From: a secondary endosymbiont of Ctenarytaina eucalypti | Lineage (GTDB): Bacteria; Pseudomonadota; Gammaproteobacteria; Enterobacterales; Enterobacteriaceae | Direction: 5' to 3' | Length of the DNA: 64,000 nt | NCBI RefSeq assembly: GCF_000287335.1 | Contig: NC_018419.1 | Location: forward strand, 1,364,001 to 1,428,000 | Shown: piece after piece, positions 18,398 to 55,396 of the stretch | Layout: the number at the start of each line of letters is the position of its first letter | How positions within the stretch are numbered: position 1 is the first letter of the stretch | Program-made: the position numbers and the translations under genes | The notes under the pieces: model-generated | What the model saw: the letters and a program-made list of their open reading frames with translations, nothing else | What the model was told of the DNA's origin: nothing | The model's database searches: none

Positions 18398-21028
18398 TCA
18401 GAGCTTTTCGATCAACATCTCATTTAAGCACGCCATTGCTACTGGCAATGCAGCGGTATCGCTACCCCCTCCCTGCGCCAGATCGGATCGTCCGCCGCCT
18501 TTTCCACCTATTTTTTTGGTAACGTAAGTAACAATATCATCTGCCTTAATCCGATCGGTCAAATCACTGGCTACGCTGGCTATCAAGCTCACTTTGCCTT
18601 CTGCCACAGTTACAAGAATGATGACTGCGGATCCTAATTGGTTTTTCAGATCGTTCACGATCCTGCGTAACATTTTCGATTCGACATTCTTAACTTGCCT
18701 TACTAGAACTTTGACTCCGTTGATGTCGCGCGCGTTATGGCCGATTAATGTGCTTTGCTGTGCAACTTGCAGGTTCTTTAATTTTTGGAGATCTTTATCT
18801 AGTTGGCGGCAGCGCACCTGCAATGCTAAGACTTTATCTGGTAGCGTATGACTGTCGCCTTTCACCAACTGCGAAATAAGATGCATTAAATCCCTCTGCC
18901 GCTGAACTACTCTTAATGCTTTTTCGCCAGTTATAGCTTCGACACGACGAATACCGGCAGCGCGGCCAGATTCCGATGTGATCGAGAACAAGCCAAGATC
19001 GCCGGTACGTCTAGCATGGGTCCCGCCACAAAGCTCGGTGGAGAAAGCGCCTATACGTACCATCCTAACCTTTTCCTCGTATTTTTCACCAAAAAGAGCT
19101 ATGGCCCCGATATTTCGGGCATCTTCTAGTGCCATCAGATCGGTCTGTATGGATAAGTTATAGCGGATCTGCTGATTCACGATCTCTTCTACTCGACGGA
19201 TCTGTGCTGATGTCATGGCCATATTATGAGAAAAATCGAAACGTAGGTATTGGTCGTTAACCAGCGACCCCTTCTGCCTGACATGTTCACCGAGAACTCG
19301 AATTAATGCTGTATGCAGTAAATGAGTAGCTGAATGATTCAAGCAGATTTGCTCACGGCGTTCCCTATCTACCTGTGCCGTGACCTTCGCTCCTAGCCTA
19401 AGTTCACCGTAGCTGAGTTGCCCGAAGTGACCAAGTGCCTTGCTATATTTCTGTGTATCCAAAACTTCGAAAAGCCCGTCAATAGATTTTAATTGGCCCC
19501 GGTCACCTACCTGTCCACCAGCTGTGCCATAGAACGGCGTTGCATCAAGCACTACTACGGCTTTGTCACCCTGAACAATGACTTCTCGCGGTTGGTCATT
19601 GAGGAACAGTGCGGTTACAACTGCCTGATGCATAAGTTTTTCATAGCCATAGAAATAGGTTTTTTCCTCGATATGCAGGATACTGTGGTGGTCAGCACCG
19701 AAACTGCTCGATTGACGCGCGCGGTTGCGCTGCGCTGCCATAGCGTGTTCAAAGCCAGCCGTATCGACGCCTCGGTTGCGTTCTTCGCAGATATCAATGG
19801 TTAAATCTAGAGGAAAACCATACGTATCATATAAATGGAAGGCAGTTTCTCCGTCGAGGGTTTTGCTAGTCAGTTTGTTTAGATGTGCCTCTAGCAACTT
19901 CAAGCCATGCTCAAGTGTTCTGGCAAACTGAGCTTCTTCGGCGTGCAGCACCTGCTCTATCATGATTCTTTGTCGCTGTAGCGGGCTTGCAGCACTGCCC
20001 ATTACCTCGATAAGCGGCTCTGTCAGTTTATAGAAAAAGGTGTCACTGGCACCGAGCATCTTACCATGCCGAATCGCGCGGCGGATGATACGGCGAAGAA
20101 CATAGCCCCGCCCTTCGTTGGACGGTATGACGCCATCGCTAATTAGGAAAGCGCAGGCGCGAATATGATCAGCGATAACTCGAAGTGATTTGCTATGAGG
20201 ATTTCTAGCGTCTGTAGCCTGGGCAGCCGCAGCGATGAGTCTTTTGAATAAGTCGATATCATAATTAGAGTTAACGTGTTGTAGTACTGCGGCAATACGT
20301 TCTAACCCCATCCCAGTATCTACCGAGGGCTTTGGCAGCGGAAGTAAGGTGCCGTCAGCTTGTCGGTTGAATTGCATAAACACTAAGTTCCAGATCTCGA
20401 TGTATCGATCGCCATTTTCTTCAGGAGTTCCCGGTAGACCGCCAGAAAGATGCTCTCCATGATCATAAAAGATTTCCGAGCAGGGGCCGCAGGGGCCGGT
20501 GTCTCCCATTTGCCAGAAATTATCAGAGGCATAGGGGCTACCTTTATTATCTCCGATACGGATGATGCGCTCGATCGGTACTCCAATCTCTCGGGCCCAG
20601 ATATTGTAGGTTTCATCATCATTATTAGCATACACAGTCACCAATAGCTTGTCTTTTGGCACATTAAACCATTGCTCACTGGTCAACAGTTCCCACGCGA
20701 AACTAATAGCATTATGTTTGAAGTAATCGCCGAAGCTGAAATTTCCAAGCATCTCAAAAAAGGTGTGGTGGCGAGATGTGTAACCGACTTTTTCTAAATC
20801 ATTATGCTTGCCGCCTGCTCGCACACAGCGCTGCGATGTAGCAGCGCTGTGGTAGGATCGTTGATCTAAGCCCAGGAACACATCCTTAAATTGGTTCATG
20901 CCAGCGTTGGTGAACAGCAATGTCGTATCGTTATCAGGCACCAGTGAGCTACTTTCTACTACCTGATGCCCTTTGCTATGGAAAAACTCGAGAAACGCTT
21001 GACGGATTTGATCGGTACTCTTATTCAT
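18398..21028 (-). CDS. alaS: Alanyl-tRNA synthetase
   Basis: 876 aa, exactly the E. coli length, if started at the ATG at 21026-21028 ([20 protein letters not shown]). An in-frame ATG 84 bp further upstream would add 28 residues unlike the family and is rejected. It charges tRNA-Ala and edits mischarged Ser and Gly. The catalytic core includes [16 protein letters not shown] and [14 protein letters not shown]. The editing site has HSATH and, further on, CGGTH (zinc ligands), followed by the C-terminal oligomerisation domain. Upstream recX-recA of enterics are missing. Confidence 0.98.
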
Positions 21029-29356: not shown

Positions 29357-30238
29357 TTATTTCAAGTAGGTGCCAGAACGGAGTGCCTCGATTCGTCTAT
29401 CTAGCGAGGGATGTGACATAAATAGTTCGCTAAAGGTTTTATTACGGCCATTGATACAAAAAGCAAGTATGCTTTTGGCTTCCTGGGGCTCGCCGCTGGT
29501 CTTTAGCCGCTGAAGTGCTGCAATCATTTTTTTACGCCCTACTAACTTAGCCGAACCAGCATCAGCATGGAATTCACGGTGACGCGAGAACCATAGTGTA
29601 ATTATGCTCGCCAAGACTCCAAACACCAACTCAAGCACCATGGAGATGGTAAAATAAACCAGAGAATTACCATTGCTATGTTCGCTCTCATCGCGATCTG
29701 ACGAAATGAACCCTGCCGTTAACTGCGCTAGGATTCGCGATATAAAAATGACGAACGTGTTTACCACGCCCTGCATTAACGTCATAGTCACCATATCACC
29801 ACTTGCTATATGGCTAATTTCATGAGCGAGGACAGCCTCGGCTTCATCGTGGTTCATATTCTGAAGCAGACCGGTACTGACGGCCAACAGCGAAGCATTA
29901 CGCGTTGCGCCGGTAGCAAAAGCGTTGATATCAACCGCATGATAAACCGCTACTTGCGGCATAGCGATATTAGCCTGCTGCGCTTGCTGGCGGACTGTAT
30001 TTATCAGCCAACGTTCAGTGTCATTACGCGGTTGCTTAATCACTTCGCCGCGAACGGAGTGCAGTGCCATAAATTTTGACATTAATAGCGAAATGAAAGC
30101 CCCGCCAAATCCAAACAAGGCGGCCATTATCATTAACCCAGCGGCACTGGAAGATTGGATCCCGGTGAGGCTCAGTACAATACCGAACACCAGCATCACA
30201 GCCAGGTTCGTCAGCAGGAAAAGAGCGATACGCATCAT
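29357..30238 (-). CDS. htpX: Membrane zinc metalloprotease HtpX
   Basis: 293 aa, same length as E. coli. This inner-membrane M48 protease degrades misfolded membrane proteins together with FtsH. It has two N-terminal transmembrane helices (about 5-25 and 33-53). The catalytic HEISH with H139, E140 and H143 is intact, a second hydrophobic pair follows, and [12 protein letters not shown] supplies the third zinc ligand. The start [11 protein letters not shown] is identical in type to E. coli, with GAGGAA upstream. A sigma-32-like promoter lies about 50 nt upstream. prc, which precedes htpX in E. coli, is gone. Confidence 0.97.
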
Positions 30239-30286
30239 AAAATGTCAGGTTCCTCGGAAAATAATTACGCTGATTGCGTAGCCCTA

Positions 30287-30314
30287 CTTTAGGGTCTTTG
30301 AGGAGTTTTTCAAG
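30287..30314 (-). promoter_or_regulatory. Sigma-32 (heat-shock) promoter of htpX
   Basis: Minus strand: CTTGAAA (30308-30314), 13-nt spacer, CCCTAAAG (30287-30294), against the consensus CTTGAAA-N11-16-CCCCATnT. E. coli htpX is a known heat-shock gene. The site is about 50 nt before the ATG and the -35 is a perfect match. Confidence 0.65.
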
Positions 30315-31264
30315 CATTACGCGGGGCTAAGTCGACAAACATACATAACTTTACATTTCATCAGGTGTTGACTCCCAGCTTTGCTGGGAAGTGTCGAAAA
30401 GTCGGCGGTTTAAGGGGTTATTGTGCACTTACCATTACACTGCCGTCTTGTTATGGGATACTATAGTTACTTCTGCCCGTGCTGTAAAAAAGCGCCCTCT
30501 TGTTAGAGCTCTAGCTTCCGGTTGATAAGGAGCGGGGGCTTAATTTTGATTCGCGTGAATAAGGTCGTAACGCGAGGTAGCTTCTTGAATGTACTTCTCA
30601 TTCAAGATCCTTAACGATGCGCGCCAGGCCGCTTGAAACAGCCGGGTCGAGAATAGATTCCAATTTTCTTTAATTTTGATAGCTCTGATTCAGGTGGGTA
30701 TGAATGAGCTATTATATAACACGTTGTTATTGAGAGCGATCGCTGTTAAATCGATAATAGTTCTGAAGCTTGTTTTGCATTGAATCTAGCATCGGCCATA
30801 CTCGACGCAACATCTGATGATGAATGAAGTAGCGCGCATGGTCTATCTGTACAGTGTTCTTATCGCAGATCTGCTCAGATTTGCTCATCCCACATCGAGC
30901 TTAAAGGTAATTTTCGAGTGCGGCTGTACGCGTAGTGAATTGCAATGACGTCGTGTCCGTTGAAAGTGATAGGCGTGCTCCTGAGCTAGTAGGATACCGC
31001 TGAGACTCGAATCAAAGCTTTCCCAAGATATTATACATCGGGGATTATAACGTGACGTTTACGAATCTTGAGCACTTAAGTTAATTTAAATTTTTGAGCA
31101 GGGAAAATGCTGTAGGATTTAAAGGGACTAAGAATCTGTCTCTGTGGTCAATGATGTTTCCGCAATGATCGAAAATGTTCTGGGCGAAAGACGATTCTAG
31201 AGCAAACGTTACCTGACCCGCTCACCTACTGTCTACTGCCGTACTATGCTGCTTTCAACTTCGG
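30315..31264. other. Silent remnant of the prc interval
   Basis: E. coli has the 2-kb gene prc (tail-specific protease) between proQ and htpX. Here the whole proQ-htpX interval is 1.1 kb and no Prc motif (PDZ region, SASASE) is readable. A short perfect hairpin TCCCAGC-TTT-GCTGGGA lies at 30373-30389. Confidence 0.5.
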
Positions 31265-31337
31265 AAGCAGATCATCTTATGTGATGTATGCTGTCGCCAT
31301 TTCTACGGGACAGCGTACATCAAAGGTGATGATCTGC
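31265..31337 (-). ncRNA. Composite long hairpin downstream of proQ (possible 3' UTR or small RNA structure)
   Basis: An 11-bp perfect outer repeat, AGCAGATCATC (31265-31275) with GATGATCTGCT (31327-31337), encloses a 13-bp inner repeat, GATGTATGCTGTC (31282-31294) with GACAGCGTACATC (31308-31320; one G-T pair). A 13-nt loop and 6-nt internal loop remain. It begins 36 nt after the proQ stop on the proQ strand. No T-run follows. Such a long structure surviving in decayed DNA suggests function as a processing or 3' stabilising element. Function is inference, and the ncRNA type is tentative. Confidence 0.4.
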
Positions 31338-31372
31338 TCTCTGTAAAAGATATTGGCCCTGTCTTGCCGGTC

Positions 31373-32056
31373 TCAAGATAAGAGCTGAAGGTCTTCTTCT
31401 CGTATTATCACGGCCATTCCGGAAGAAAGTTGTATATGTACTCCTGCTTTTCCGATGTTTAGGATGATTGCTTGTATGGGATTTTTACCAATTTTAACTT
31501 TGATCGTTTGTCCAACTCTAAAACTATCCAGGCTAGTGACGGCTAAGGTTTTTACAGCGCGTGTCGTTTGCCGAACTGAAACGCTAGGATTTGCTTTTTT
31601 AAGATGGGGAATGCAAGTGGTTTCGGGCTTACTTTTTCTAGCTTGGTTGAATAAATCGGCACCATGCAGCGTAGCCGCATTATCGTTTATGCGCGTTTTC
31701 GGTTCTTCAGCGGCGAGCTGCAGCTGAACTCTGGCTTTAGCGTCCGTTAATGTTTTGCGTGCATGTTCAACATGCTGCGTTTCCATCGCACCGCAGGGGT
31801 TACCAGCGAGATCAATGCGCTGCACGCCAATCTTTATTTCATTGAGGTAACGCCAGGTTGAAACATACCGGTGTAATGCGGAACGCAGTTGCGTCTTACT
31901 GATATTCTCTTCGCCCTGAACCTGTTCAACCAAATCCTGAAAGATACCGATCTTTAACGGTTTAGCTTTACCTTGGGTAGTGAAGCAGAGAGGGAAGCGA
32001 TTCGCTAAAAATTTAATCACTTCTTTTTTGCTCTTCAGTTTAGTTTTGTTGTTCAT
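31373..32056 (-). CDS. proQ: RNA chaperone ProQ
   Basis: 227 aa (232 in E. coli). It binds many small RNAs and mRNA 3' ends. The N-terminal FinO-like domain (about 1-125) is well kept: KEVIKFLANRFPLCF, PLKIGIFQDLV, KTQLRSALHRYVSTWRYL and GNPCG. The linker (about 125-175) is less basic and shorter in repeats than in E. coli. The C-terminal Tudor-like domain contains FRVGQTIKVKIGKNP and LSSGMAVIIREEDL. The start MNNKTKLKSKKEV matches the family. prc, normally downstream, is missing; a long hairpin takes its place 36 nt after the stop. Confidence 0.95.
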   Translation of the reverse strand: MNNKTKLKSKKEVIKFLANRFPLCFTTQGKAKPLKIGIFQDLVEQVQGEENISKTQLRSALHRYVSTWRYLNEIKIGVQRIDLAGNPCGAMETQHVEHARKTLTDAKARVQLQLAAEEPKTRINDNAATLHGADLFNQARKSKPETTCIPHLKKANPSVSVRQTTRAVKTLAVTSLDSFRVGQTIKVKIGKNPIQAIILNIGKAGVHIQLSSGMAVIIREEDLQLLS

Positions 32057-33735
32057 TAACTTTCCTCATCACAACGGTTGCGCCAACTAGCGTAGGCATG
32101 AACAGACGTTATTAGAATGACACCATCGGAAAATGCCACGTAATCCGTATATCATGATCAAGTCTGAGTGTTCAATGTGAGCATATTGATGCTATCTAAC
32201 GGCCGGAAGAACTAATCAATACCGCTTGAGTGTATCTTGATCATCCCACTCAAAGCGATGAGAGATCGTTCTATCGATATCTAAAGCGTGTTTTATTAGT
32301 TTATGCCATTGAAATAGGCAGTGCGATTTTAAAAGGATAGTATGTGAATAATTGATATTATCTACTTTTTTAGTGAGAGGTTATGCAGTGCGATACCATC
32401 AGCATCTGATATTAGGTGCCTCATGTAACGCCACGTCTTGAAGCTATAGTGAAAAAGTTCTGGTGCTATCTTTGCTATCTAGGTATTGCATGAGATGTAG
32501 GATAGTCATCATTGATATGCCAATGAACTTCTCTTTAGATCAGTGACAATCATTGCCCATTAGGTATTAGCCTAAATATTATACTGATGAATTAAAAAAA
32601 GAACATTCCTAAAGCAGGCTGTAGATAGTGCAGTTTTGAACGCTCTGGTTCTTATCTTTTTTGAGGGCTTGATAAACTCTTAAGAATTATTCTCCTCTGG
32701 TATAAACTTCTAGTAGAGCATTCTGCCTCTTGAACTTTCCGTTATTTAATAGGGTTTAATTGCATGATTTTTTAAAAAAAATAATTGGTTTATCGAATAA
32801 ACGCGACGTAATCTTTTGATTCAAAATAATTCCAGAGTGTAGTGGATATAACTGAATCTGATATGAGGTATCAAAAGAGCTATTGATAGCTAATTGATGT
32901 TTCTGCTGATATAAGATATAATAAATTTATTTTTTAGTCTTTGATAGATTTACTCTTTACAGATATTACAAGCATTGAGAATGATGTTGAATATCGATTT
33001 CACATCTTTAATCTAGAGTTTTGCTTATAGTATAAATAGCATTCATTACTTAGTTTACTGGGTAATAAGTTTTTTTAACATAGAACGACTTCATAGCTAT
33101 TTTAGGATAATATCAACTTTTTTCTTTTAACATTCCTATTGCGGAGAGGAAAAGAAGTGTGTTTCGGTCAGTAAATGACATATAAGACTTTACCACTGTC
33201 AGTCAGTGTGAGTTATGATCGATCGCCTTATATATAATACCACTATTACATAAAATGCTATCTGCGTGACTATAACGAAGGAACATTACATCAAATCTTT
33301 TTTATCTTTTAATAAAACCGATTAACGACATTACCTACTTCTATAATAAAATCTAATGCATGCTTTTTGACTGTAATGCAACAAGAATTAGGATATTGCT
33401 TGTAAATTATTTAAGGAATTGCATTAATTCAGAAAATTCTATTGTAGGGTAATAAAAATATAATGATTTATTGATTATTTTGTGGTTTAATTAAAGAAGA
33501 GATGAATAAATATTTCGTGGAATCATTATATCGCATCGAGCGTGATATGACTGTCCTTCTAGCAGAAGGCTTGTGACGTAATTAAGGACAATATTCAGCA
33601 TTGTTTACGGGAGTAAACCGCCGACACGCTTTAATCATTACCATCGCCTTTCCTACCGTCAGATTATAGGAACAGTGAAAACGCGTACGTCAAGGATCCG
33701 AGGAAGATAAAAAGCATTTTTTATTGATAGCAGTT
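32057..33735. other. Silent AT-rich DNA between proQ and pssA
   Basis: 1.7 kb, among the most AT-rich parts of the window. No frame, RNA gene or remnant recognised. Confidence 0.55.
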
Positions 33736-33772
33736 CAGCAACCCCGCTTGCTTGTTGCAAGCGGGGTTGCTG
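33736..33772. repeat. Perfect 16-bp hairpin downstream of pssA
   Basis: CAGCAACCCCGCTTGC and its exact reverse complement are separated by TTGTT. It is GC-rich inside a very AT-rich region, 142 nt beyond the pssA stop. Neither strand shows an immediate T-run, although A/T-rich sequence follows on the minus strand. It is a candidate pssA transcript end or stabilising structure. Confidence 0.6.
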
Positions 33773-54042: not shown

Positions 54043-55396
54043 TCAGAATTAAGTACATGCTGCCTAAGAGCGATTTTATAGCTGTAATGCATTCTCTTTA
54101 AATTTTTTATTCCTTAATCAATTTATGCAAAATTATTTATTACAATGCACCTGTATTCTAGGTGTATTATTTCCGGCGCCCTCTGGTTTAAGAGATAATG
54201 ATTAGATAATTTGACATTTTAAGCAAGCACTAGATTCGTGCATTTAATATCTGTAGTTTTGATTGTATAGGTTACAATAACTAAGAAGCCTGCTGACAGC
54301 AATGCGATGAAGCAACGTCAGACTCTGAGAGTACGGAGTCTGTGAGTAAGAGATTGGCTCCATGCATGAAGCAATTATCTTACGCCTAGTAGCCGAATAC
54401 GTATCTACTCTGTTCATCTCATGCACTATAGTAGTCATTAAAAAAGAGGTGTCGGAGTTTTGAAAAGTGTACTCAAGGAACGCCTTTACTCCAGTTGAAA
54501 TAGATTCAGATTTCGCTAAGATGACCGGATGTTTTTTCTCACAAAACGAGAAAATAATCAGATCACAAAAAATTTTAAAATACAGTGAAATGATCTATGT
54601 GATGGTTCCGATTAACAAAATACAGAGTGTTAATGATATCACAAAGAAGCGCCGGCAGCATAAATAGTATATCCCTCCTGAACAATCCGAGGAAAGTTAG
54701 TTGACCGGTATTGACAATATACGTCACTGCGGCAATGCTCTCTTAAGACAGCAACTTCAGTCACTATTTCCCCCTCAGAAAAAAGGGGGGATATTAGCTA
54801 GCTGTTATGTTATGAGGGTCACTATATTCTCAGAAATCAACATTTGAGACATTTCCTATCCGCAATAGGCATTTCCCGGTTTAAAATACTTTCAGGTAAT
54901 TATTTGATTCTCAGTGATGTAGTTATTCTAATAAAGTTAGGTGATTAACATCGTTAAAGTATTGCAGAAGATTAGCCTGTTAGGCATGCCGAAGAGCGCT
55001 CGTATCGTGTTGAAGTAATTCTGATCGCCTCTAACTTGTAACAAACATTTATTTATAAAACTATTGCCTAGTAATGACAATATATTTGTCAGAGACATGG
55101 GCATCACGTGAATTTTATGCACTCACATGCAATCTCTGGATTGTGAGGATTTTTTTTCAAAAAAAACCGATAAATGACAACATGATGAAATCATATATGA
55201 TTATTTATTAATGTTGCACGTCGGGATTGACGATTTTTTTCGGCTTTTATATTAGTTACTAGTCTAACGTGAATCAATGTCTTTTTAGTATTTTGTTATA
55301 GTATGTAATCACAAAGATCAGCATGCGTTTCTCATGGGGAAAGAACCAAACAGGGTATTGTATACTACAAGCAGTTTTTTAAGTTTAGAGGTCGTC
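54043..55396. other. Silent DNA between tRNA-Phe and pfkA
   Basis: 1.35 kb with short frames only. A 7-bp hairpin CAGACTC...GAGTCTG lies at 54319-54342. TATACT at 55361-55366 is a -10 candidate for pfkA without a clear -35. Confidence 0.45.

Follow-up and report, generated by a model that had tools for sequence, protein, structure and literature searches.

A hairpin lying just downstream of proQ in this Sodalis-related endosymbiont is very probably the eroded scar of a short-range template switch, that is, of a snap-back replication error of the quasipalindrome type, within a prc pseudogene. This reading comes from comparing the sequence of the two hairpin arms with orthologous prc genes, in which one arm can still be followed as ancestral prc and the other appears to have been replaced by the reverse complement of the first. 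The window, by which we mean the whole 64-kb stretch of DNA that was analysed (G000:C1:1364001-1428000), belongs to a one-contig genome of 1,441,139 bases, and the main reference is a Sodalis-like genome (G004) with a main contig of 4.7 Mb. The features of the window on which we draw are as follows.

29357..30238, minus strand: intact open reading frame of 293 aa on the other flank of the prc pseudogene, which we take to be htpX from the gene order and the look of the frame
30430..31357 (low end approximate), minus strand: prc pseudogene, from blastn to G004 prc and from frame comparison
31266..31295, minus strand: 3' arm of the hairpin as read on the proQ strand; decayed prc at about codons 21-31, the mature N-terminus, with an in-frame TAA
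31277..31281: left side of the 5x5 internal loop, with 31323-31327 as its partner
31296..31308: hairpin spacer or loop of 13 nt, still prc-like (7-10 of 13 positions identical to six orthologs)
31309..31338, minus strand: 5' arm of the hairpin as read on the proQ strand; at about codons 7-17 of prc, in the signal peptide, and an apparent inverted copy of the 3' arm
31373..32056, minus strand: proQ, intact, 227 aa, 58% identical to the G004 protein
33736..33772: second hairpin of this kind in the window, with perfect 16-bp arms and a 5-nt spacer; neither strand has a T run beyond it

The hairpin arms (31266-31295 and 31309-31338) are 30 nt each, are complementary at 25 of 30 positions and enclose the 13-nt spacer. 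The two nested stems described in the initial annotation do exist: the outer one (31266-31276 with 31328-31338) is a perfect 11 bp, the inner one (31282-31295 with 31309-31322) has 14 bp with a single non-Watson-Crick position, and between them 31277-31281 face 31323-31327 in the internal loop, which holds four of the five arm mismatches. The odd position of the inner stem had been described as a G-T pair, which holds for the plus strand, where it is a G-U pair, and fails for the proQ transcript, since on the minus strand the same position is a C-A mismatch. The predicted fold is very stable on both strands (plus strand, MFE −48.1 kcal/mol, z −9.07; minus strand, MFE −42.2 kcal/mol, z −8.24), with 0 of 200 shuffles folding as well on either strand, and the hairpin ranks first among the 12 inverted repeats listed for the window (arms of at least 18, distance of at most 150). 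Elsewhere in the window, 54346-54383 is a palindrome-like repeat with overlapping 23-nt arms that are 83% complementary, and the hairpin at 33736-33772 lies downstream of a 453-aa open reading frame that by eye is of phospholipase-D type.

Compared by blastn in pieces, 30200-32100 is colinear with the htpX-prc-proQ region of G004. About 0.93 kb of the 2.04 kb of prc is left; the start codon is lost, a stop lies in frame, and roughly 0.9 kb has been deleted internally near 30877-30886. No Peptidase_S41 match was found in the symbiont genome, which likewise lacks any match to residues 1-200 of G004 Prc, a query that 206 of 295 genomes matched. The hairpin overlies the prc start, with its 5' arm at the former signal-peptide site, and so does not stand “in place of prc”, as first described: blastn and frame comparison with orthologs place it inside a pseudogene that can still be recognised. 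The stretch containing the 3' arm translates as MATAYIT*DDLLPKLK, against MAKDDITRADQIPALK in G004. Counted to the stop codon of proQ, which is on the minus strand, the gap to the hairpin is 34 nt and not the 36 nt first given. A search with the ProQ protein returned one short, uninformative match (68%, query residues 147-170), to a contig titled Lokiarchaeota MAG.

The two arms have different histories when compared, in a fixed frame, with six Sodalis-group prc orthologs (L059-L064), which are about 60-65% identical at best, none of them close. The 3' arm is identical to the orthologs at 14-18 of 30 positions and the 5' arm at only 7-10 of 30, while 25 of the 30 positions of the 5' arm agree with the 3' arm once the latter is reverse-complemented. 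Identity is 6-13/22 in the upstream flank and 18-23/55 in the downstream flank, the latter figure being uninformative as it is lowered by a 2-nt length change; one ortholog (L063) has an extra codon at the 5'-arm site, which lowers its 5'-side counts. Assuming 60% identity, a count of at most 8/30 has P = 2.2e-4 and one of at most 10/30 has P = 2.9e-3. The symbiont and five of the six orthologs share a distance of 38 nt between the anchors that flank the 5' arm. Given the low ortholog identity and the unchanged anchor distance, the alignments indicate that the 5' arm has lost its homology, has kept its length and is now an inverted copy of the 3' arm.

Pseudogene sequence drifts freely, and the same two stretches are already complementary at 9-11/30 in the six orthologs, although only at that level, so that one might ascribe the hairpin to random drift, perhaps from a pre-existing partial palindrome. 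We regard this as extremely improbable, and simulation strongly disfavours it: when the Sodalis prc start was allowed to drift, 0 of 23,012 simulations reached 24/30 and the maximum was 23 (two cases), against an observed 25; the best inverted repeat that an ancestor-like sequence offers anywhere is only 17/30; and no shuffle folds as well as the hairpin does.

The state found in the symbiont is also derived in a single lineage, as judged from the six orthologs and from 39 other genomes, none of them of the same genus; 20 of these 39 hold matches to the hairpin, of 15-28 nt only. An 18-nt match at query positions 61-78 recurs in several relatives. The initial annotation had judged “selection or recent origin” likely. 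An origin specific to this lineage is supported by the absence of the structure from the orthologs examined and by one arm being an inverted copy; selection finds no positive support, as the structure is not conserved and unrelated hairpins elsewhere in the genome are equal or better. Since the long perfect ones among those hairpins mostly lie outside open reading frames of at least 100 aa, selection is not required for paired positions to persist.

Inverted arms around a short spacer also resemble a mobile or repeated palindrome, such as a REP-like element, a MITE or the end of an insertion sequence. That origin is very unlikely: within the genome the sequence is single copy, its matches being itself, its own reverse and one of 27 nt at E 0.76; the matches in other genomes are short; and one of the arms is in-register prc sequence. 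A repeat family or mobile element was rejected on the single copy and on the lack of any phage or plasmid match covering the hairpin, the phage matches being four of 21 nt. Of the observations that the initial annotation had named as counting against its own reading, we found absence from relatives and did not find dispersed copies.

The same annotation had proposed a small RNA derived from the proQ 3' UTR, a processing site or a 3' end bound by ProQ itself, any of which could be under selection and might have been co-opted after a chance origin. The very stable fold on both strands, the position 34 nt past the proQ stop and the internal loop, which leaves both stems nearly intact, speak for such a functional RNA, as does a minus-strand sequence resembling a promoter (31376 to 31347), from which a transcript would begin close to the hairpin. 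Promoter-like matches in the region, however, number one, against a shuffled mean of 2.0. ProQ-bound 3'-UTR small RNAs have a stem followed by a U-rich 3' tail, and no U-rich tail follows the stem here on either strand. Nor is a terminator called at the hairpin, the sole one in 31000-32200 being at 31676-31693 on the plus strand. No Rfam family matches (the best, mir-4012, scores 18 bits where the gathering score is 80, with E = 4), a counterpart is absent in the six orthologs, the structure is not conserved downstream of proQ in relatives, the C-A mismatch falls on the proQ strand, and unrelated hairpins occur elsewhere in the genome. Judged from sequence features of this kind, a functional RNA appears unlikely, and the proposed small RNA or ProQ site gains no positive support from tail, terminator, family or conservation. 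The hairpin may well shield the 3' end of the proQ mRNA as a side effect of where it lies.

A template switch would account for the hairpin as follows. During replication the nascent strand would have snapped back close to the start of prc, and the stretch encoding the mature Prc N-terminus, now the 3' arm, would have served as its template, so that the signal-peptide stretch was overwritten with an inverted copy that became the 5' arm; point changes would then have eroded the stem to 25/30, and missing SbcCD and ExoVII activity would let such hairpins form or persist. We infer the replication mechanism, the direction of copying, the timing after loss of prc function and the part played by the absence of SbcCD and ExoVII. 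Simple decay after one event predicts poorly that the mismatches of the present stem are clustered; the clustering might instead reflect two separate events, or a structural role that constrains the stems. Elsewhere in this genome, perfect stems reach 32 bp.

Hairpins of comparable quality are frequent in the rest of the genome. We sampled the symbiont and G004 in 20 stretches of 20 kb each (400 kb per genome, outside the window) and sixteen further genomes at 100 kb each. With arms of 30, spacers of 3-100 and at least 24 matches, the symbiont sample held five hairpins (30, 30, 30, 26 and 25 matches) and the window one (25), against none in G004 and none in five shuffled symbiont samples; when spacers were limited to 3-20, a count of 24 was reached in one Markov sample out of five. 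Perfect arms of at least 16 bp with spacers of 3-20 numbered 13 in 400 kb of the symbiont (the longest 32, 31, 30 and 25 bp) and one, of 16 bp, in 400 kb of G004. Four relatives with an SbcD match above the cut-off (the SbcD-positive genomes G004, G016, G042 and G069) together had one such arm in 700 kb, a difference from the symbiont with P = 1.8e-5 that serves only as a guide because the 16-bp threshold was picked post hoc, from the symbiont's own spectrum. In this SbcD-positive pool the match of G069 is partial (positions 1-167 of 252), and the pool leaves out G095, the one reduced genome with SbcD. At a threshold of at least 13 bp, the symbiont had 24 perfect arms against 7 in the four SbcD-positive genomes, and Markov sequence of its own composition had none; with one Markov sequence per genome, G131 gave two, G165 one, G004 one and the other 15 none.

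Each of the 13 long perfect arms is unique to its own site within the symbiont sample, and 10 of the 13 hairpins overlap no open reading frame of at least 100 aa (coverage by such frames, 51% of the sample; P = 0.04). The three longest, at L108:8727-8793 (G000:C1:1288727, 32 bp), L105:6614-6678 (G000:C1:1076614, 31 bp) and L091:4166-4230 (G000:C1:94166, 30 bp), are perfect inverted repeats outside open reading frames of at least 100 aa, have loops of 3-5 nt and are each unique in the sample. At L104:19739-19793, perfect 20-bp arms span the end of tsaD: the frame stops in the interval that separates them, at 19771, and the tsaD 3' end recurs as an inverted copy in the downstream arm. At the level of the symbiont's own sequence and of protein, this hairpin and one in RsmJ (L108:2736-2777) are consistent with template switching and do not constitute evidence for it.

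A coding case is provided by ispH, which contains a perfect 18-bp hairpin (L101:9112-9152). Its arms are complementary at 18/18 positions in the symbiont and at 6-11/18 at the same positions in 10 of 10 orthologs. Relative to those orthologs, the left arm is identical at 12-16/18 positions and the right arm at 8-12/18, the left exceeding the right in all ten; the flanks are identical at 91-99 of 120 positions and the reading frame is intact. The right arm alters a position that holds an acidic residue or Asn in 10/10 orthologs: the two residues after LA are A, T, G, M, E or D and then D, N or E in the orthologs, and VG in the symbiont. In this alignment the pattern closely fits the trace expected when one arm of a quasipalindrome is rewritten from the other. 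The copying would nevertheless not have been wholly one-way, because the left arm has changed too, an E that is kept in 10/10 orthologs being R in the symbiont. The ispH hairpin bears as well on a library or assembly artefact. Polymerases can fold back during library preparation, and the proQ-side hairpin could in principle be a chimeric fold-back of this sort; to that we attach very little credence, as its arms differ at 5/30 positions and the ispH hairpin stands within an intact reading frame.

The nuclease search covered Exonuclease I, the ExoVII large subunit and SbcD, and loss of SbcCD was judged from SbcD. Exonuclease I (PF08411) is present in the symbiont genome, while neither SbcD (TIGR00619) nor the ExoVII large subunit XseA (PF02601) had a match in the whole of it; the SbcD and XseA profiles were both positive in E. 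coli. As Exonuclease I is present but SbcD and the ExoVII large subunit were not found, we infer that this lineage generates fold-back copies without clearing them and that the hairpin beside proQ is an older, eroded one. SbcCD is reported to remove hairpin structures once the stem reaches a minimum length, put at between 8 and 16 bp (PMC3733652). Published work describes template switching as creating hairpins or making them more perfect (PMC8794818, PMC7202029, PMC6357072) and reports high rates of it in E. coli recB mutants (PMC6357072), and PMC6357072 cites a work whose title has Exonuclease I aborting template switching.

A causal role for the loss of SbcCD is suggested, not shown, by what is a correlation with clear exceptions. 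Besides the symbiont, thirteen genomes without an SbcD match above the cut-off held 30 perfect arms of at least 16 bp in 1300 kb, unevenly spread: seven in G131, five in G062, four each in G164, G150 and G165, three in G015, two in G013, one in G053 and none in G119, G008, G094, G068 or G070. Absence of SbcD is accordingly insufficient, five of the thirteen having no such arm. AT-rich genomes are among the rich ones, and six of the thirteen (G008, G015, G013, G131, G165 and G062) have 22-30% GC; G053, G062 and G164 have weak SbcD-domain matches below the cut-off. Long perfect repeats in other reduced genomes include 35 bp and 31 bp in G062 (L207:4420 and L205:14121) and 30 bp in G131 (L191:19431).

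Several published systems resemble what we describe. In the template-switch hairpins of PMC8794818, as in the course of events proposed here, a reverse-complement copy of a neighbouring stretch creates a stem in one event and the mismatches that make bulges come later; those cases concern microRNA and rRNA genes with a reconstructed history, whereas ours is a bacterial pseudogene without a known RNA role that is compared with distant orthologs. In E. coli quasipalindrome mutation, intramolecular template switching likewise perfects imperfect inverted repeats (PMC7202029, PMC6357072), but the assays score reversion of a lacZ quasipalindrome (18 bp, PMC6357072), while here the arm is 30 nt, the orthologs are complementary at 9-11/30, and the time is evolutionary. 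Nematomorpha mitochondria also have many long, perfect inverted repeats within a single small genome (PMC6649704); their palindromes reach 284 bp and lie in functional genes, whereas ours reach 32 bp in the sample and mostly lie outside open reading frames of at least 100 aa. REP-type palindromes are, like these hairpins, short DNA palindromes, but REPs form sequence families (PMC3733652) and the symbiont hairpins are each unique in the sample. The abundance of inverted repeats in symbionts is as such already published: according to a survey of bacteria, they are most frequent in Buchnera and also frequent in the symbiont of Heteropsylla cubana (PMC10434271). Among the literature matches listed, none ties long hairpins of endosymbionts to template switching, although such work may exist elsewhere.

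Because a single replication error can make stems of this kind, a strong hairpin that seems to have survived where symbiont DNA has decayed does not count as evidence of selection. Extending the argument beyond the proQ-side hairpin, we think it possible, though somewhat short of probable, that template switching acts as a standing mutator in endosymbionts lacking SbcCD and ExoVII. It would seed new and often perfect hairpins (arms of 16-35 bp in our samples) in dead genes and in conserved ones such as ispH, which would then erode, and a few of those beside expressed genes, such as proQ, may come to serve as mRNA 3' ends or as new RNAs. If true, template switching would mark genome decay with a mutational signature and would also supply new RNA structure. 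Should the genome-wide pattern hold, template-switch mutation would be naturally recorded in symbionts lacking SbcCD, where one could ask directly whether losing repair genes changes which kind of mutation drives genome decay, and whether template switching gives rise to new RNA hairpins.
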